Assembly (NCBI RefSeq): GCF_963677155.1
Contig: NZ_OY781884.1
Location: 682,001-746,000, forward strand
DNA length: 64,000 nt
DNA from: an uncultured Draconibacterium sp.
GTDB taxonomy: Bacteria; Bacteroidota; Bacteroidia; Bacteroidales; Prolixibacteraceae
Direction: 5' to 3'
A program made the position numbers and the translations under genes. Below the pieces are notes generated by a model, which saw only the letters and a program-made list of their open reading frames with translations, was not told the origin of the DNA and did not search any database. Of the stretch, positions 8,973 to 17,982 are shown piece by piece. The stretch's first letter is position 1. Each line of letters starts with the position of its first letter.

Positions 8973-10552
8973 TGTCTTTTTACCGTATTAATACCAGCGC
9001 TACTTTGCGCAGATTAACTCCTGCAATTTTTCTGTTAGTTCTTTTGCTTGTTACAACAAAAGGATTTTCGCAGGAAAAAAAACGTGTGGAAATTATACAG
9101 GCCAAAACTCTGGAACAAGGAAAAAATATTGCCAATGCCCAGCGCCTGATTGACGACGTAATCATCCGTCACGAAGATATTCTAATGTACTGTGACAGCG
9201 CTTATACCTATGAAGGAACAAATCGGGTAGATGCTTTTGGCAATGTACACATTAACAAGGGCGATACGCTGCACCTTTATGCACGAAAAGTTTATTACGA
9301 TGGCGACCGCAGTTTTGCACAGGCCATAAACAACGTAAAGCTGGTGAATAAGGAGGTAACGCTTTACACCGACACGTTGGATTACGACATGAACCTAAAT
9401 GTTGGCTACTACGATTGTTTCGGAAAGATTGTTGACAGCACCAACACGCTTACCAGCAATGTGGGGAAATATTACCTCGACAATAGCGAAGCACATTTTA
9501 CCGACAGTGTTGTTGGCTACTCTGATAAATACACGATCAATAGTGAAGACCTCCGCTACAATACGCAAACTGAGGTTATCTATTTCAAAGGGCCAACTAC
9601 CATTCGCGATTCGGGAAATACACTTTATGCCGAAGATGGTTGGTACAATACCCAAACCGGAGAGGCCGACCTGAAAAAAATGCCAAGCGTGTATAACGAA
9701 ACACAACTTTTAACAGCCAAGCAAATAAGCTATAACAAAGAGAATGGCGATGGTTATGCCGAAGGAAACGTACACATCGAAGACTTTGAGAACCAAACCA
9801 TTATTCAGGGAAACAAGGTAACTTACAACAAAACAAAGGAAACAGCCACTGCCACCGATTCGGCAGTTTTTATTTCCTACAACGAAGCCGACAGCCTGTT
9901 CCTTCATGCCGACACATTAAAAAGTATCCCTGACACCATTGATGGCGAAAATATTGTAATGGCCTATTATGGCGTACGCTTTTTCAGAACTGACCTACAG
10001 GGGCTTTGCGATTCGCTGATGTATTTCACGAAAGACTCGTTGATTCAAATGCACAGCAACCCGGTTATCTGGAGCGAACAACACCAGCTTAGTGCCGATT
10101 ATATTGAAATGATTCAGCACACTACTGCCCCCAACGAAATGCATATGATGAAAAATAGTTTTATCATTTCAAAGCAAGATTCGGGGCGCTACGACCAGAT
10201 TAAAGGCAAAGACATGACCGGTTACATCGTTAACAACAAACTACGGAATATAGATGTGGACGGTAACGGGCAAACCCTGTATTATGCCCGCGATAAAGAA
10301 GCCATTATTGGTCTGAACAGAGCAGAAAGCAGCAACATTAATATCCGGTTTAAAGAAGGAAAAATTGATGCTATTGCATTCCAAAAACAACCCGAAGGAC
10401 AGTTAAAACCAATTTTAGAACTTACTGAAGGCGAAAAAACATTGCCCGGGTTCGACTGGAAAATAAAACTACGTCCGCTTTCGAAGAAAGACATCTTCTG
10501 GCGACCGGAAAACAAAGAGGTGATTGAAGAAGAAGAAGTAACAGGTCGATAG
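8972..10552 (+). CDS. OstA/LptA-like periplasmic protein
   Basis: A 526-residue exported protein with an N-terminal signal (hydrophobic stretch LTPAIFLLVLLLVTT, cleaved after GFSQ). The body has repeated short beta motifs typical of the OstA/LptA fold (AFGNVHINKGDTLHLYARKV, then AEGNVHIEDFENQTIIQGN), which in LptA form a groove that carries lipopolysaccharide across the periplasm. It is much longer than E. coli LptA, as usual for Bacteroidota OstA-like proteins. It overlaps the MoxR gene by 1 nt, completing the envelope operon. Confidence 0.88.
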   Translation: MSFYRINTSATLRRLTPAIFLLVLLLVTTKGFSQEKKRVEIIQAKTLEQGKNIANAQRLIDDVIIRHEDILMYCDSAYTYEGTNRVDAFGNVHINKGDTLHLYARKVYYDGDRSFAQAINNVKLVNKEVTLYTDTLDYDMNLNVGYYDCFGKIVDSTNTLTSNVGKYYLDNSEAHFTDSVVGYSDKYTINSEDLRYNTQTEVIYFKGPTTIRDSGNTLYAEDGWYNTQTGEADLKKMPSVYNETQLLTAKQISYNKENGDGYAEGNVHIEDFENQTIIQGNKVTYNKTKETATATDSAVFISYNEADSLFLHADTLKSIPDTIDGENIVMAYYGVRFFRTDLQGLCDSLMYFTKDSLIQMHSNPVIWSEQHQLSADYIEMIQHTTAPNEMHMMKNSFIISKQDSGRYDQIKGKDMTGYIVNNKLRNIDVDGNGQTLYYARDKEAIIGLNRAESSNINIRFKEGKIDAIAFQKQPEGQLKPILELTEGEKTLPGFDWKIKLRPLSKKDIFWRPENKEVIEEEEVTGR

Positions 10553-10630: not shown

Positions 10631-10680
10631 CCAGAACATCACTTCCCACAAAATTGCGTAGATCATTATTCGAACTAAAG

Positions 10681-10920
10681 TTGCCGGATGCAGTTTTGCA
10701 CAGGCCTGCCCGACTCAAAAAGTTGCCAGTCGCAGAATTGCAAGAGCCAATCTTTTGTAAAAGTTTCCCTCTCGCTGAGCTGCAGGAGCATTTCTTACGG
10801 AAAAAGTAAGCTCTCGCTGATTTGCAGGAGCAAAACCTACGCGTCGGGTTGGCTCTCGCAGAATTGCGGCTGGCAATCCGACGGAAAAAGTTGTTAGCTA
10901 CAAATTTGCGAGAGCCTATA
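10681..10920. repeat. Degenerate tandem array, 42-bp period, about 6 units
   Basis: The core GC(A/T)GA(A/G)(T/C)TGC and close variants recurs at 10690, 10732, 10774, 10816, 10858 and 10900, exactly 42 bp apart. Flanks such as CTCTCG upstream and AGGAGC downstream are partly conserved. A 69-codon Cys/Ser-rich open frame (10688-10897) crosses it, but it looks like a by-product of the period being divisible by 3. The function is unknown. Confidence 0.8.
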
Positions 10921-10963
10921 TTTCAGGGCCTTACGTGTTTTTGACATTTTTCTAACGCTAAAC

Positions 10964-11002
10964 AAAAGATTCCATCTTTTTTACAGAGATGGAATCTTTT
11001 TT
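10964..11002 (+). terminator. Strong intrinsic terminator downstream of the 42-bp array
   Basis: AAAAGATTCCATCT (10964-10977) pairs with AGATGGAATCTTTT (10987-11000), with a short T-rich loop and further Ts. The A-rich 5' flank makes it potentially bidirectional. No gene ends nearby: the last CDS stops 410 bp upstream, so the 42-bp array would sit in the 3' UTR or in a separate transcript. Confidence 0.75.
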
Positions 11003-11243
11003 CTACAGAAGACTGAGACTGCCCGCTGAGCTCTAAACTTATGCTCCCGACGTAGCGGTCAGGATTTGGACCAGCATAGCTTATCTCAACTTTTTACTTT
11101 CAACTTTTACCTTGATTCAAAAGTTACTTCAATGTTAACGCAAAACAGACATTTCGGTATTATTCTTCTTTTTTCAATAAAAAACAAGCATTTCATTTTC
11201 ATTTTAAAATAATATTTTCATATTTGCAGGAAATCATAAGCAA

Positions 11244-11315
11244 ATGACAAAAAATATCAACATTTCTATTCTTAACCTACTAATTGGTATTCTTCTTCTA
11301 ACAAGAAAGAAATGA
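11244..11315 (+). CDS. leuL: leu operon attenuator leader peptide
   Basis: A 23-codon open frame, ATG at 11244 and TGA at 11313-11315. It encodes six Leu and five Ile residues, concentrated in two blocks (SILNLLIGILLL), then ends TRKK. The Leu codons are CTT and CTA. AGGAAA lies about 12 bp upstream, and a -7-like CATATTTG is at 11219-11226. Hydrophobic charge-poor leaders rich in the end-product amino acid are the hallmark of ribosome-mediated attenuation: with scarce Leu-tRNA the ribosome stalls in the Leu block. Placed directly upstream of a leader terminator and leuA. Confidence 0.85.
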   Translation: MTKNINISILNLLIGILLLTRKK

Positions 11316-11381
11316 GAATGGTGTGTTGATTAACGATATTGGAATAATGAAGCCATTCTCACATTGAGGATGGCTTTTTTC
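11313..11381 (+). promoter_or_regulatory. Attenuator with competing antiterminator and terminator hairpins
   Basis: Terminator: 11351-11361 (AGCCATTCTCA) pairs with 11365-11375 (TGAGGATGGCT), one G-U, followed by a run of Ts. Antiterminator: 11313-11321 (TGAGAATGG) pairs perfectly with 11353-11361 (CCATTCTCA), which is the terminator's 5' arm, so the two are mutually exclusive. The antiterminator's first arm begins at the leader stop codon. A ribosome finishing the leader would cover it and allow termination, while one stalled at Leu codons would leave it free. This fits leucine-responsive control of leuACD-leuA2-leuB. Confidence 0.85.
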
Positions 11382-11435
11382 ATAATAGACAGGCACTTAG
11401 CTTAAAAGAAAAATAACATAAATAGACAACAAATC

Positions 11436-12941
11436 ATGAGCGACAGACTTTACATTTTCGACACAACTTTAAGGGACGGTGAACAGGTTCCGGGTTGTCA
11501 GTTGAACACGGTAGAAAAGATTGAAGTTGCCAAAGCATTGCAAGAATTGGGAGTTGATGTAATTGAAGCAGGATTCCCAATTTCAAGCCCCGGCGATTTT
11601 GAATCGGTAGTAGAGATTTCGAAAGCGGTTACATGGCCAACAATTACAGCCTTAACCCGCGCAGTACAAAAAGATATTGATGTTGCAGCCGAATCACTCA
11701 AGTACGCCAAAAAAGGTCGTATTCACACCGGAATAGGAACATCTGACTTTCATATTTACCAGAAACTCAACTCAAATCCCGATGCGATTATTGAGCGCGG
11801 TGTTGAGGCAGTGAAATACGCAAAAAAATATGTTGAAGATGTAGAGTTTTATGCCGAAGATGCTGGCCGTACCGAAAATGAGTACCTGGCTCGCGTTGTA
11901 GAGGCCGTAATTAAAGCCGGCGCAACGGTTGTAAACATTCCCGATACTACCGGTTACACCTTGCCACACGAATTTGGTGCAAAAATTAAATACCTGATGG
12001 ACAATGTGCCAAATATTCATAAAGCGATTATTTCCACCCATTGTCATAACGATTTGGGAATGGCAACCGCCAACACTGTTTCAGGAATCCTGAATGGTGC
12101 CCGTCAGGCTGAGGTTACCATAAACGGTATTGGCGAACGCGCTGGTAATACTTCTTTAGAGGAAGTAGTAATGACATTGAAAACGCATTACAAAGCACTG
12201 GGAATTGAAACTGGTGTAAATACCAAGAAAATCTATGGAACCAGCCGTTTGGTTTCAACATTAATGAACATGCCTGTTCAACCAAACAAAGCAGTTGTTG
12301 GACGTAATGCTTTTGCACACTCGTCGGGTATTCACCAGGATGGCGTATTGAAAAACCGCGAGAACTATGAAATTATGGATCCGGTTGAAGTTGGAATCAA
12401 CGAATCGGCCATATTACTGACTGCCCGCAGTGGTCGCGCCGCATTGAAACACCGATTGGAGTTGTTAGGCTTCGAGTTGGATAAAGAAAAGCTTGACGAG
12501 GTTTACGAAGAATTTCTGAAACTGGCCGATAAGAAAAAAGACATCCGCGACGACGATATCGCATTGTTGGTTGGCGATGCAACTCGTAAAGAGCACCGCA
12601 TTAAACTGGAGTACCTGCAAGTGGTTACCGGTAAAAGCTTAAAACCAATGGCTACTGTTATTTTGAATATATCGGGCGAGAAATTCGATGCCACTTCGGA
12701 AGGAAACGGTCCGGTTGATGCAGCTATTAAAGCAGTTAAAAAGATTATTCATCGTCAGGTAGTTATCGAAGAGTTCCTGGTACAAGCTATTACCCGCGGA
12801 AGCGACGATATTGGTAAAGTACACATGCAGGTGGAGTACCAGGATTCAATCTATCACGGATTTGGTGCACACACCGATATTATTACTGCTTCGGTAGAGG
12901 CCTTTTTGGATGCCATAAATAAATTGCCGGCGGCATTGTAA
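11436..12941 (+). CDS. leuA: 2-isopropylmalate synthase
   Basis: Condenses acetyl-CoA with 2-oxoisovalerate, the first committed step of leucine synthesis. The 501-residue protein begins with the DRE-TIM barrel signature [12 protein letters not shown]. It has the metal-binding [12 protein letters not shown] and NGIGERAGN motifs and a C-terminal LeuA regulatory domain (from about residue 390, [13 protein letters not shown]), through which leucine usually inhibits. First structural gene after the attenuator. Confidence 0.96.
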
Positions 12942-12959
12942 TTTATAGAGTATAACGCT

Positions 12960-13037
12960 GTCATTTCGACGATGCAGGAAGAGAAATCGGGTTCCTTTTA
13001 GTAACAGATTTTTCAGTCTTTCATCCTTCGAAATGAC
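12960..13037. repeat. Dispersed inverted repeat, GTCATTTCGA...TCGAAATGAC (78 bp)
   Basis: The termini GTCATTTCGA (12960-12969) and TCGAAATGAC (13028-13037) are perfect inverted repeats. The interior carries AGAAATC and AACAGATTTTTC arms. Related copies lie at 15185-15262 and 31194-31277. Located between leuA and leuC. Confidence 0.8.
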
Positions 13038-13051
13038 ATCAAAATAAAATC

Positions 13052-14452
13052 ATGACAGCAAAAACATTATTTGATAAGATTTGGGATGCACACGTGGTGA
13101 AACAGGTCGAAGGTGGCCCAAATGTATTGTATATCGACCGTCACTTTATTCACGAAGTAACGAGTCCGGTTGCCTTTTTAGGATTAAAAAACCGCGGATT
13201 GAAAGTTTATCGTCCGGATCAGACCACAGCTACTCCCGACCATAACGTTCCAACGATCAACCAACACCTATCGATTAAAGACGAGCTTTCGCGTAATCAG
13301 GTTGAGATGTTGAAAAAGAATTGTGAGGAGAACGGAATCACTCACCACGGTTTGGGAACCGAAGGACACGGGGTGGTTCATATCATCGGGCCGGAAATGG
13401 GATTAACCCAGCCAGGAATGACTATCGTTTGTGGCGACAGCCATACTTCTACTCACGGAGCTTTTGGAGCCATTGCTTTTGGTATTGGTACCAGCGAGGT
13501 AGAAATGGTTTTGGCCAGCCAGTGTATTATGCAGCCTAAGCCAAAGAAAATGCGCATCACTGTTAACGGAACTTTAGATAAAGGTGTAACTGCAAAAGAT
13601 ATAGCGCTTTACATCATCTCTAAAATTTCAACCAGTGGAGGAACAGGTCACTTTATCGAGTATGCAGGTTCGGCAATTACCAGCCTGTCGATGGAAGGCC
13701 GAATGACACTTTGTAACCTCAGTATTGAGAGCGGTGCCCGTGGTGGAATGATCGCTCCGGATGAAACTACTTTCAATTACGTAAAAGGCCGTCAGTTTGC
13801 GCCAAAAGGCAAAGACTGGGATAAAGCCATGGAAAAATGGGCTGAATTAAAATCAGATGAAGGTGCCGTTTTCGATACCGATTACACGTTCGATGCTGCC
13901 GATATTGAGCCGATGATCACTTACGGAACAAATCCGGGAATGGGAATTGGAGTTTCGCAAACTATTCCAACATCAGAAGGAATGACAGGAACGGATAAAA
14001 CGACTTATCAAAAATCGTTGCAATACATGGGATACAACGAAGGCGATGCCATGAAAGGCAAACCGGTTGATTTTGTATTTCTGGGAAGTTGTACCAACGG
14101 CCGTATTGAAGATTTTCGCGAATTTGCCGCTTTTGTAAAAGGAAAGAAAAAAGCCGACAACGTTACGGCATGGTTAGTACCCGGATCAAAACAGGTGCAA
14201 AACCAAATCGAAGCAGAAGGACTTGTTCCGATTTTAGAAGAAGCAGGTTTTGAATTGCGTCAACCTGGATGTTCTGCATGTTTGGCAATGAACGACGATA
14301 AAATACCGATGGGTAAATATTCTGTATCAACATCAAACAGAAACTTCGAAGGTCGCCAGGGACCGGGTGCACGCACATTGTTGGCCAGCCCGCTTACTGC
14401 GGCAGCTGCAGCTGTTTCAGGAGTTATTGCTGACCCAAGAGAAATGATGTAG
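13052..14452 (+). CDS. leuC: 3-isopropylmalate dehydratase large subunit
   Basis: The aconitase-family [4Fe-4S] subunit that, with LeuD, isomerises 2- to 3-isopropylmalate. The 466-residue length is standard. The cluster cysteines sit in [13 protein letters not shown] and in the CSACLAMN segment near the C-terminus. The active-site region [15 protein letters not shown] is intact. It follows leuA across a dispersed palindrome, in the same orientation. Confidence 0.97.
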
Positions 14453-14462
14453 ATATATTTTA

Positions 14463-14567
14463 CCACCTCCCTCCCGATTTATCGGGAGTACTCCTCCTGT
14501 AAGGGGGAGAAATTTCCCCTCCTTGTAGGAGGGGTGACAACCTATAAGATTGGCGGGGTGGTTCAAT
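14463..14567. repeat. C/G-rich dispersed intergenic repeat with hairpins
   Basis: Between leuC and leuD lie the hairpin CCCGATTTATCGGG and the paired blocks TCCCCTCCTTGTAGGAGGGG, ending in GGCGGGGTGGTT. The C-tract and G-tract style recurs near 42.5 and 43.3 kb and resembles intergenic repeats known in Bacteroidota (recalled, not searched). Being inside the operon, it would fold in the mRNA. Confidence 0.55.
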
Positions 14568-14591
14568 CAATAATAAGTAAAGAATAAAAAA

Positions 14592-15179
14592 ATGGCATAC
14601 GATAAATTTTCAGTAATAAATACTTCGGCAGTACCTCTGCCATTCGAAAATGTAGATACCGACCAGATTATTCCTGCCCGCTTTTTGAAAGCAGTAGAAC
14701 GTAAAGGATTTGGCGATAACCTTTTCCGCGACTGGCGGTACGAAAACGATGGAAGTCCAAAAGCTGACTTCCCGTTAAACAATAAAAAATACTCAGGAAA
14801 AATACTGGTAGGCGGCAAAAACTTTGGTAGCGGATCGAGTAGAGAGCACGCCGCATGGGCCATCTACGATTATGGTTTCCGTGTAGTAGTTTCAAGCTTT
14901 TTCGCCGACATCTTTAAAGGAAATGCGTTGAACAACGGACTGTTACCAGTTGTTGTTTCTCCAGAGTTCCTTGAGAAAATCTTTGCTCAGATAGAAAATG
15001 ATGCAGATTCAACTTTCGAAGTCGATCTTCCAAATCAAAAATTCACCATAACAGCTAGTGGTGAGTCAACTGATTTCGAGATCAATCCGTACAAAAAGCA
15101 TTGTTTGCAAAATGGATTGGATGATATCGACTACCTCGTTGATATGAAAGAGCAAATAGCAGAATTTGAGGCTAATTAG
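14592..15179 (+). CDS. leuD: 3-isopropylmalate dehydratase small subunit
   Basis: The swivelling subunit that completes isopropylmalate isomerase with LeuC. The 195 residues contain the family motifs [26 protein letters not shown] and [13 protein letters not shown]. Third structural gene of the leu operon. The start ATG follows an A-rich leader after the C/G-rich repeat. Confidence 0.96.
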
Positions 15180-15184
15180 TTGCT

Positions 15185-15262
15185 GTCATTTCGAACCGTA
15201 AGAATGAAGGTGAGAAATCTGTTAATTGAAACAGATTTCTCGTCGTTCCTCCTCGAAATGAC
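15185..15262. repeat. Dispersed inverted repeat, GTCATTTCGA family (78 bp)
   Basis: Outer arms GTCATTTCGA (15185-15194) and TCGAAATGAC (15253-15262), with a nested palindrome GAGAAATCTGTT/AACAGATTTCTC. The length and ends are identical to the copy at 12960-13037. It sits between leuD and the second synthase gene. Confidence 0.85.
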
Positions 15263-15289
15263 ATGATAATTTGAAACAGACAGATAAAA

Positions 15290-16870
15290 ATGACAGGCAA
15301 AGCAGTAGAAATTTCAGGCAAACGCCTTACCATAATGGATACTACCCTTCGCGATGGCGAACAAACTTCCGGAGTTTCGTTTAGCGAAGGGGAAAAACTC
15401 AGTGTGGCAAAAGTGTTGCTCGAAGATGTAAAAGTAGACCGCATTGAAATTGCCTCAGCACGGGTGTCGGAAGGAGAATTCAAAGGCACGCAAAAGGTAA
15501 TGCAATGGGCCGCACAAAAAGGTCATCTCGAAAAAATTGAGGTACTTGGATTTGTTGATGGGAAAATTTCGCTGGAATGGATTGCCAAAGCCGGGGGAAA
15601 AGTGATCAACCTGCTGTGCAAGGGATCGTATAAACACGTTACCGAGCAACTACGCAAGACACCAGAACAGCATGTGGCCGACATCAAACAAGTGCTTAAC
15701 TATGCCAACGAAATGGGAATCAAAGTAAACATTTACCTTGAAGACTGGTCGAACGGTATGCGCAGCTCGAAAGACTACGTTCACTTTATGATATCGAGCC
15801 TAAAAGTCGAAAAGGTGGAGCGTTTTATGCTTCCCGATACGCTTGGTATTCTCGATCCGGACGAGACCTACGATTTCTGCCACGAAATGATTGAAAGCTT
15901 TCCTGATGTAGATTTCGATTTTCATGCACACAACGATTACGACCTGGCTATTGCTAACGTTTTCCATGCATTGAAAGCCGGAATTCGCTGCGTGCACACT
16001 ACGGTAAACGGTCTGGGTGAACGTGCCGGAAACGCTCCCCTATCGAGTGTTATCGCCACTATAAAAGATCACCTCAAAATGAGAACAGGGGTGAACGAAG
16101 CGCAGTTAAATAAGGTGTCTAAATTGGTAGAATCCTTTTCAGGAATACGTATTCCAACGAATAAGCCACTAATTGGTGAATTTGTGTTTACGCAATGTAG
16201 CGGAATTCATGCCGATGGTGATAGCAAAAACAACCTCTATTTTAACGACTTGTTACCGGAACGTTTTGGCCGTACACGCCAATATGCCCTGGGAAAGACT
16301 TCGGGAAAAGCCAATATCAAAAAGAATCTGAAGGATCTTGGCATTGAGCTGGATAAAGAATCGCTAAAAAAAGTTACCGATAAGGTTATTGAACTGGCCG
16401 ACCAAAAAGAAACCATCACCAGCGACGAGCTGCCTTATATTGTTGCCGATGTTCTGGAGAATGACCTTTTTGAACAGCGCGTAAAAGTGGTTAATTACTC
16501 GATAAGTTACACCATGGGATTGCGACCAATGGCGAATGTTTCCCTTGAAATTGATGGAAAGATTTACGAAGAATACAGCGATGGCGACGGACAGTACGAT
16601 GCTTTTGTAAAAGCGTTGCGCAAGATCTACAAACGCCTCGATAAGATATTCCCGATTCTGGTTGATTATGTGGTAACCATTCCTCCGGGCGGTAACACCA
16701 ATGCCCTGGTTGAAACGGTTATTACCTGGCGCAACGATCACGAATTTAAAACAAAAGGGCTGCATCCCGATCAGAATGCCGCTGCAATTCTGGCAACAAC
16801 CCGAATGTTAAACGTAATTGAAAACGAGTTTAACTCCACAAAACTGGAAGAAATAAAAAACGAAAAATAA
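15290..16870 (+). CDS. Second LeuA/CimA-type synthase (isopropylmalate or citramalate synthase)
   Basis: A 526-residue DRE-TIM enzyme with [16 protein letters not shown] at about 18-33, the metal site DFHAHNDYDLA, NGLGERAGN and a C-terminal regulatory domain (MANVSLEIDGKIYEEYSDGDG). It is clearly different from the leuA product and closer in style to the citramalate/alpha-isopropylmalate group. It may make citramalate from pyruvate for a threonine-independent isoleucine route, or be a second isopropylmalate synthase; the sequence alone does not decide. The Ile codons in the leader and leuB directly downstream fit a joint Leu/Ile operon. Confidence 0.85.
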   Translation: MTGKAVEISGKRLTIMDTTLRDGEQTSGVSFSEGEKLSVAKVLLEDVKVDRIEIASARVSEGEFKGTQKVMQWAAQKGHLEKIEVLGFVDGKISLEWIAKAGGKVINLLCKGSYKHVTEQLRKTPEQHVADIKQVLNYANEMGIKVNIYLEDWSNGMRSSKDYVHFMISSLKVEKVERFMLPDTLGILDPDETYDFCHEMIESFPDVDFDFHAHNDYDLAIANVFHALKAGIRCVHTTVNGLGERAGNAPLSSVIATIKDHLKMRTGVNEAQLNKVSKLVESFSGIRIPTNKPLIGEFVFTQCSGIHADGDSKNNLYFNDLLPERFGRTRQYALGKTSGKANIKKNLKDLGIELDKESLKKVTDKVIELADQKETITSDELPYIVADVLENDLFEQRVKVVNYSISYTMGLRPMANVSLEIDGKIYEEYSDGDGQYDAFVKALRKIYKRLDKIFPILVDYVVTIPPGGNTNALVETVITWRNDHEFKTKGLHPDQNAAAILATTRMLNVIENEFNSTKLEEIKNEK

Positions 16871-16917
16871 AACGACCACAGGCATACCCTTTTGTGTGTC
16901 TGTAAATTTCTAAAAAA

Positions 16918-17982
16918 ATGAAACTTAACATTGCATTATTGCCCGGCGACGGGATCGGTCCTGAGATTGTTGATCAGGCTATGAAAGCAGTGAAAGCTGT
17001 TGCAAAAAAATTTAATCACGAATTAGAATACAAGCAGGCATTAACAGGTGCTGCTGCCATCGACGCAGTTGGCGATCCGTATCCCGAAGAAACTCACGAA
17101 TTGTGCATGAAATCGGATGCTGTACTCTTTGGCGCTATTGGCGACCCAAAATTCGACAATAATCCCAAAGCGCCGGTTCGTCCTGAACAGGGATTACTGG
17201 CCATGCGTAAAAAACTAGGATTGTATGCCAACATTCGTCCGGTAGAAACTTTCGAATCGTTGTTGCACAAATCGCCACTTCGCCGCGAATTGGTTGAAGG
17301 AGCTGATTTTGTTTGTATCCGCGAATTAACCGGTGGAATGTATTTCGGAGAAAAAGGTAGAAAAGACGATGGAAATACCGCATACGACACCTGTATTTAC
17401 ACCCGCGAAGAAGTAGAACGCATTTTGAAACTGGGTTATGAATTTGCTGCAAAACGCAACAAAAAACTTACGGTGGTTGACAAAGCCAACGTATTGGAAA
17501 GCTCGCGTTTGTGGCGCGAAGTGGCACAAGAAATGGCACCGAATTATCCTGAAATTCAAACAGAATATATGTTTGTGGATAATGCTGCAATGCAAATTAT
17601 TCAATGGCCAAAGAATTTTGATGTAATGGTTACTGAGAATATGTTTGGCGATATACTTACCGACGAAGCCAGTGTAATCACCGGATCGCTTGGATTGTTG
17701 CCTTCTGCATCAGTTGGTATCCACACTTCGGTTTTTGAGCCAATTCACGGATCGTATCCACAGGCAGCTGGTAAAAACATTGCCAACCCGATTGCTACCA
17801 TCCTTTCGGCAGCCATGATGTTCGAATATGCTTTCGACCTGAAAGAAGAAGGTAAATTGATTCGCGAGGCTGTTGCGGCTTCAATGACTGAAGGTTTTGT
17901 TACTGAAGACATTGCTGAAGGACCAGCGCAAAGCACATCGGCAGTTGGCGATTGGATCGCTCACTGGATTGAAAAGAACTAA
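16918..17982 (+). CDS. leuB: 3-isopropylmalate dehydrogenase
   Basis: Oxidatively decarboxylates 3-isopropylmalate to 2-oxoisocaproate with NAD+. The 354 residues show the N-terminal [12 protein letters not shown], the substrate-binding [10 protein letters not shown], the catalytic [10 protein letters not shown] region and the metal-binding site [14 protein letters not shown]. In relatives LeuB can also process the citramalate-derived intermediate (family knowledge), fitting its position behind the CimA-like gene. Last gene of the leu operon, closed by a strong terminator. Confidence 0.97.

Follow-up and report, generated by a model that had tools for sequence, protein, structure and literature searches.

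In enterobacteria, attenuation of the leu and ilv operons operates through the leader peptides leuL and ilvL, and a working attenuator requires that transcription and translation be coupled. Leader-peptide attenuation of branched-chain genes is also described for Rli60 of Listeria and for ilv-leu of Staphylococcus aureus (PMC5864092; PMC5794164). As far as the available descriptions allow them to be likened, these share with the locus reported here a leader with branched-chain codons, an antiterminator and a terminator, and the S. aureus leader is rich in Leu and contains three Ile; they differ in being Firmicutes systems, in standing 5′ of ilvD and in having additional CodY control. A 2010 report, in its available text, presents a Firmicutes case as the first such system known beyond Proteobacteria and Actinobacteria (PMC2965389). 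A different leuA element, the LEU element of Actinobacteria, is outlined as a pseudoknot with a base stem between the Leu codons and the Shine-Dalgarno box of leuA (PMC1262725).

For Bacteroidota, reports are few. One sentence in the available text on Flavobacterium psychrophilum mentions strong clues for leader-peptide attenuation (PMC9723704): these candidates have the phylum, the proposed mechanism and amino-acid operons in common with our locus, but pheA and hisG are among their conserved 5′ elements and no leuA element is named in that text. Leader-peptide-like sORFs are noted in the accessible part of a study on Bacteroides thetaiotaomicron (PMC7366714), and the Bacteroid-trp motif (RF01692) is tabulated as cis-regulatory in Bacteroidetes in the part seen of PMC2864571, where it and Termite-leu (RF01730) are, like our element, proposed structured RNAs; neither model matches the leader described below. 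No leuA attenuator in Bacteroidota was found among the literature matches listed, and Vitreschak 2004 and Lopatovskaya 2010 may cover the phylum. An initial annotation of the locus had called such control little described in the phylum; this is fair in view of these partial sources, although “undescribed” would be wrong (PMC9723704; PMC7366714; PMC2864571).

The locus lies in a stretch of 64,000 nucleotides of an uncultured Draconibacterium sp. (hereafter the window). On its forward strand, the genes leuA, leuC, leuD, a cimA-like gene and leuB follow each other from 11436 to 17982. The first, for 2-isopropylmalate synthase, covers 11436–12941 and scores 745 bits with NF002086 (cut-off 532) and 686 bits with TIGR00973 (cut-off 599); leuC (13052–14452; TIGR00170, 664 bits, cut-off 560), leuD (14592–15179; TIGR00171, 197 bits, cut-off 116) and leuB (16918–17982; TIGR00169, 456 bits, cut-off 353) are assigned likewise. 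The synthase gene at 15290–16870 is labeled cimA-like by its best match only, NF042433 (Leptospira CimA), whose 673 bits stay below the cut-off of 950. From sequence comparison, we put at roughly 90 percent the probability that a ribosome-mediated transcription attenuator in front of leuA controls leuA-leuC-leuD-cimA-leuB via charged tRNA-Leu and probably tRNA-Ile. The mechanism would be the classical one: the element is a further example of leader-peptide attenuation, in a phylum for which the sources above report it only briefly.

A short ORF rich in codons for the pathway product precedes the operon. The leader peptide MTKNINISILNLLIGILLLTRKK is encoded on the forward strand by 23 codons and a TGA (11244–11315, stop at 11313–11315), and reading of this stretch agrees with the six Leu and five Ile codons annotated before. 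The Leu codons are, in order, CTT, CTA, CTA, CTT, CTT, and CTA, and the Ile codons ATC, ATT, ATT, ATT, and ATT. The main control codons are ATT CTT CTT CTA at 11289–11300 (Ile16, Leu17, Leu18, and Leu19), a position conserved across lineages. CTA makes up 8.8 percent of the Leu codons in 35 ORFs of the window vs. three of six in this leader; it accounts for 45 of 141 Leu codons in 26 leaders of many species, the genomic baseline being taken from this window only. Upstream, CATATTTG at 11219–11226 on the same strand is a putative promoter element, which we take to be a -7-like box on the basis of the Bacteroidota promoter consensus TAnnTTTG; a similar stretch is also found 5′ of the leader in same-genus loci compared in gene orientation. 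If this box is right, the leader ATG would be preceded by only about 12 nt of transcript. Farther upstream, imperfect repeats (e.g., ctctcgctga.ttgcaggagc) occupy 10660–10930, 3′ of an ORF ending at 10552 and 5′ of the leader, and a symmetric hairpin, AGATTCCATCT...AGATGGAATCT, lies between A and T runs at 10965–11000 and may terminate transcription of the gene before it.

Between the leader and leuA lies an intrinsic terminator. Its 5′ arm (segment 3, 11349–11361) and 3′ arm (segment 4, 11365–11377), the latter backed by fold and covariation, form 13 pairs, two of them G-U, around a CAT loop; a run of six T (11375–11380) overlaps the stem in part and ends 55 nt before the leuA start. The terminator and T-run had been annotated before, but with arms at 11351–11361 and 11365–11375, which fall short of the real extent. 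Segment 2 (11313–11330) begins with the antiterminator 5′ arm, 11313–11321, which pairs with 11353–11361 of segment 3 at nine of nine positions, exactly as annotated. Antiterminator and terminator are thus mutually exclusive via their common arm, and the TGA of the leader coincides with the start of the antiterminator arm: on both points the pairing coordinates uphold the initial annotation, which overlooked a third helix. In the predicted fold, leader codons 5–10 pair with 11314–11330: segment 1 (11256–11273), which lies within the leader ORF and is defined by the fold and by partner comparison, contributes 11256–11263 and 11268–11273, and segment 2 alternatively contributes 11314–11319 and 11323–11330. 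The predicted fold energy is -40.8 kcal/mol for the complete leader (z -5.2; none of 200 shuffles equally low), while z is -4.3 for the terminator stretch (0/200) and -4.1 for the antiterminator stretch (1/200). A generic consensus terminator scan did not list the terminator at 11349–11377, which was therefore assessed by fold and comparison.

From the comparisons below, we infer a translated leader on which ribosome stalling would steer termination according to amino-acid supply, as follows. When Leu- and Ile-tRNA are plentiful, the ribosome would reach the stop at 11313 and cover segment 2, segments 3 and 4 would form the terminator, and the transcript would end near 11380. A shortage of Leu-tRNA (or Ile-tRNA) would stall the ribosome at codons 16–19 with its front edge just short of 11313, and segment 2 would be free to pair with segment 3, giving read-through. 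If the leader is not translated at all, 1:2 pairing would withhold segment 2 from segment 3 so that the terminator forms.

Homologous elements are found in front of leuA in relatives. LeuA was detected in 52 of 61 genomes, and the leuA start was obtained in 34 of 36 same-genus genomes, giving 35 loci with that of the own genome; homologous leaders pass in 33 of these. The two exceptions are a locus truncated by the contig end, which retains the antiterminator and terminator (L034), and a degenerate one (L029). Outside the genus, genomes with the element 5′ of leuA include those of Bacteroides gallinarum (L058), Phocaeicola plebeius (L062), a member of the Tannerellaceae (L051), an uncultured Prevotella (L056), and a member of the Paludibacteraceae (L071). 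Together with the stem tests below, these homologs give a positive outcome to the check set by the initial annotation, that leader codons and covarying stems be kept in relatives.

The detector used for these counts demands a terminator, a segment farther upstream that is complementary to the terminator's 5′ arm, and, close by, a short ORF that includes three or more Leu. It was applied to 114 leuA upstream regions, which consist of 48 loci plus 66 of 80 named ones (14 with names of other phyla were dropped); 54 were accepted and 60 rejected. Among dinucleotide shuffles of the 112 regions of at least 200 nt, 10 for each, 7 of 1120 passed, and none of the 114 reverse strands did; among random 500-nt windows of L049–L128, 14 of 800 were accepted, and real elements may be among them. 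When the Leu rule was replaced by an ATG leader with at least four of any one residue, this element alone was found in the 64 kb on both strands. Of the regions failing the detector, L064 was accepted by a looser scan, and L052, L069, L073, and L075 have leuA downstream of ilv genes in an ilv-leu operon. By eye, leaders with a hairpin and T-run were recognized in L074, L076, and L078, a leader without a good T-run in L055, and a Leu-rich ORF alone in L068; none was seen in L057, L059, L061, L063, L065, or L079.

For partner tests, the 54 leaders were clustered at 80 percent identity, and one representative was taken from each of the 26 clusters; duplex energies between true segment partners were then compared with those between permuted ones. 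For 1:2, the means are -17.6 vs. -13.0 kcal/mol (z -7.4), and none of 20000 permutations was as good; the same holds for 2:3 (z -7.7) and 3:4 (z -9.2). The 2:3 and 3:4 tests are partly circular because the detector demands both, while 1:2 is independent, lying outside the selection. After removal of seven near relatives of the window, the 19 representatives kept give z of -6.7 for 1:2, -7.2 for 2:3, and -7.7 for 3:4. The own 1:2 energy beats the swap mean in 23 of 26 representatives, with no advantage in L045, L060, and L082.

Column counts were made on an alignment of 27 of 30 leaders, the most divergent (L044, L060, and L082) being omitted. In the terminator columns, 94 percent of cells are paired and 7 of 13 pairs are changed on both sides (0/500 shuffles). 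The antiterminator columns are paired in 82 percent of cells vs. at most 45 when slid, and two of nine pairs have double changes, a number equalled in 130 of 500 shuffles. The 1:2 columns are paired in 67 percent of cells vs. 35–50 when slid, with a covariation score equalled by 6 of 500 shuffles, and the number of doubly changed 1:2 pairs in the 27 leaders is not above controls. RNAalifold on the same alignment gave the terminator helix alone, and 1:2 was instead tested by own-vs.-swapped duplex energies. Permutation of the leader codons put 1:2 at the 5 percent level in 13 of 26 representatives (11/200 for the window's own leader). The case for the 1:2 helix is strong when judged by duplex energy and modest in the column counts; a protector pairing that would favor termination without translation is present, more weakly so by codon permutation and column count.

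The spacing of the control codons fits a stalled ribosome. In 49 leaders, from which those seen only by eye are excluded, the distance from the first base of the last codon in the branched-chain run to the antiterminator arm has a median of 16 nt and an interquartile range of 14–16, and it falls within 12–20 nt in 44; in the window's own leader, the Leu19 codon starts 15 nt 5′ of the arm. The position of the stop codon is looser, anywhere between 8 nt upstream and 24 nt downstream of the arm start within the bounds set by the detector, and has a standard deviation of 8.8 vs. 4.0 for the codon-to-arm spacing. A ribosome reaches about 12 nt beyond its A-site codon, and therefore a stall at the last control codon would just release segment 2: the control codons are positioned for this. 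Codons, helices, and spacing together support the earlier claim that the logic of the enterobacterial leu and ilv attenuators is reproduced here. A Leu-rich leader, the 1:2, 2:3, and 3:4 pairings, CTA Leu codons, and a terminator before the first gene are common to this element and to leuL and ilvL. Unlike these, it combines Leu and Ile codons before a leu operon, its Bacteroides-type copies have a leader ORF running through segment 2, and the leader matches no Rfam leader model.

Control of the terminator by a T-box, riboswitch, or RNA-binding protein instead of a translating ribosome might be proposed wherever a terminator in a 5′ UTR competes with another hairpin, and the ilv-leu operon of Bacillus subtilis is, in the available text of PMC5794164, under a T-box. 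Here such control is highly improbable: no Rfam family reaches its gathering score in the window, only about 12 nt would precede the leader ATG if the -7-like box is right, the spacing follows the codons, and the leader residues follow the pathway. A search of 11150–11450 yielded four weak matches (E up to 5) to unrelated families, far below gathering; the Leu leader, T-box, Bacteroid-trp, and Termite-leu families are absent from these four and from gathering-score matches in the window. Bacteroid-trp and Termite-leu also gave no match at E up to 1 in L058, L062, L066, L071, L040, and L138. Elsewhere in the compared loci, Rfam matches are to 5S rRNA, to a miRNA family, and, below threshold, to a TPP riboswitch. 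Since no Rfam model matches the leader, its short RNAs may stay unlabeled in transcriptomes.

With a limit of E up to 0.001, a covariance model trained on 27 leuA leaders matched 102 of 247 Bacteroidales genomes (58 of which remain at the stricter limit of 2.8e-6) and 31 of 296 genomes in a phylum sample, three of which are of the same order. In the order, 70 loci were inspected, namely all matches at E up to 2.8e-6 but one, plus a third match in the own genome (L188), which was rejected because neither a leader nor a gene fits its hairpin. The downstream gene is leuA in 41 loci, at least six of which overlap the training set, ilvD in 25, ilvB in two, and glutamate synthase-like in one, with nothing fitting in one; the ilvB and glutamate synthase-like genes are putative identities, assigned from their protein starts.

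These loci also bear on whether the hydrophobic small peptide might itself be the product, a membrane peptide with the hairpin as its ordinary terminator. The peptide is indeed hydrophobic and conserved in the genus, but between lineages its sequence and length vary while codon type, helices, and spacing stay constant, and 68 of the 70 inspected loci sit 5′ of leuA, ilvD, or ilvB; we regard this reading as even less probable than control by a T-box, riboswitch, or protein. LeuCDB serve leucine and, together with CimA, isoleucine; thus, the products of the operon predict Leu and Ile without Val. In the leuA leaders (n = 41), mean counts are 4.68 for Leu, 4.68 for Ile, and 0.44 for Val; in the ilv leaders (n = 27, two entries being an identical sequence of one genome), they are 4.07, 3.78, and 3.85. 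At most one Val is present in 36 of 41 leuA leaders and at least two in 22 of 27 ilv leaders (Mann–Whitney p = 8e-11 for Val, kinship ignored). Seven of the peptides were entered by eye, and the choice of ORF favored L, I, and V equally.

Whether Ile is sensed together with Leu needs separate weighing. A leucine-only attenuator would sense tRNA-Leu alone, with the Ile codons serving segment 1 pairing or being mere neighbors. Codons 5, 7, and 9, all Ile, are part of segment 1 or adjoin it so that base pairing accounts for part of the Ile codons, and codons near the start of a leader tend to exert little control. Furthermore, in operons lacking CimA, L044 and L082 have leaders with Leu and no Ile, while five Ile codons are present in L045/L077 (two handles of a single locus). 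Against this, in many lineages Ile16 or its counterpart lies where the ribosome would stall, and Val, as hydrophobic, is near-absent from leuA leaders and common in ilv leaders. Prevotella and Prevotellaceae leuA leaders (L056, L064, and L078), in operons with CimA, have IIIIRL in common, which places four consecutive Ile codons at the control position. Another CimA-less operon, L060, contains ilvA and has a leader with seven Ile. A strict correspondence between CimA and Ile codons across operons is thus only suggestive. Leucine-only sensing is rather unlikely on balance, though it deserves more weight than either alternative above; the comparison supports a leuA leader that probably senses both Leu and Ile, and the dual sensing suggested in the initial annotation gains support from the Leu, Ile, and Val counts and from the cimA-like gene in the operon.

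Other leaders are found in the same genome. The ilvD gene is preceded by a leader, MKVLSININVLLVVILGKTEKVH, with antiterminator and terminator, and hisG (L136) by MTGRTLHHGHHWKNQPSGRL with four His codons and then a terminator. Upstream of trpE (L138, 3318000–3321500), tandem leaders MQKINTIWLPWWGLLT and MRTNNNIWWWRSNFLQIS have three Trp each, and each is followed by a terminator; they match no Rfam family, Bacteroid-trp included. No Thr or Phe attenuator was seen upstream of thrA and pheA of this genome.

Codon sets differ by operon: Leu and Ile before leuA, Val, Ile, and Leu before ilvD, and four Ile before the Prevotella-type leuA. Perhaps one ancestral RNA scaffold acts as a swappable branched-chain sensor across Bacteroidales, in which the helices 1:2, 2:3, and 3:4 and the spacing of about 16 nt are kept, control codons are rewritten for each operon or lineage, and copies are in tandem in some genomes; we consider the chances of this proposal even. 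If true, it would mean that ribosome and RNA polymerase are tightly coupled in Bacteroidota, which make little use of Shine-Dalgarno initiation. Because attenuation needs coupling, the leaders are natural probes of it in this phylum, and control codons rewritten on a constant scaffold would be a natural experiment on which codons count.

In the phylum sample, 17 loci were viewed: 10 have branched-chain or threonine genes or leaders, and seven have nothing fitting. The latter (L218, L219, and L221–L225), with no amino-acid leader or gene, are probably chance matches or plain terminators. Among the former, Ile-rich leaders, some in tandem, occur 5′ of an ilvE-like gene with ilvD further downstream. 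Two consecutive Ile/Val-rich leaders are present in other Bacteroidota (L213, L216, L220, L107, and L121), upstream of either ilvE-like genes or ilvD. Thr/Ile-rich leaders, e.g., MTTNNTIIITIITTGINLGGR, stand 5′ of thrA in a different family of the class (L212 and L214). Finally, the same hairpin scaffold, TGAGGATGG with CCATTCTCA, is located on the reverse strand of L180 (about 1475–1600), 3′ of a Lys/His-rich leader without Leu, MKTKHTSFANKHAYKHNKIVQ, and a putative glutamate synthase-like gene follows downstream.
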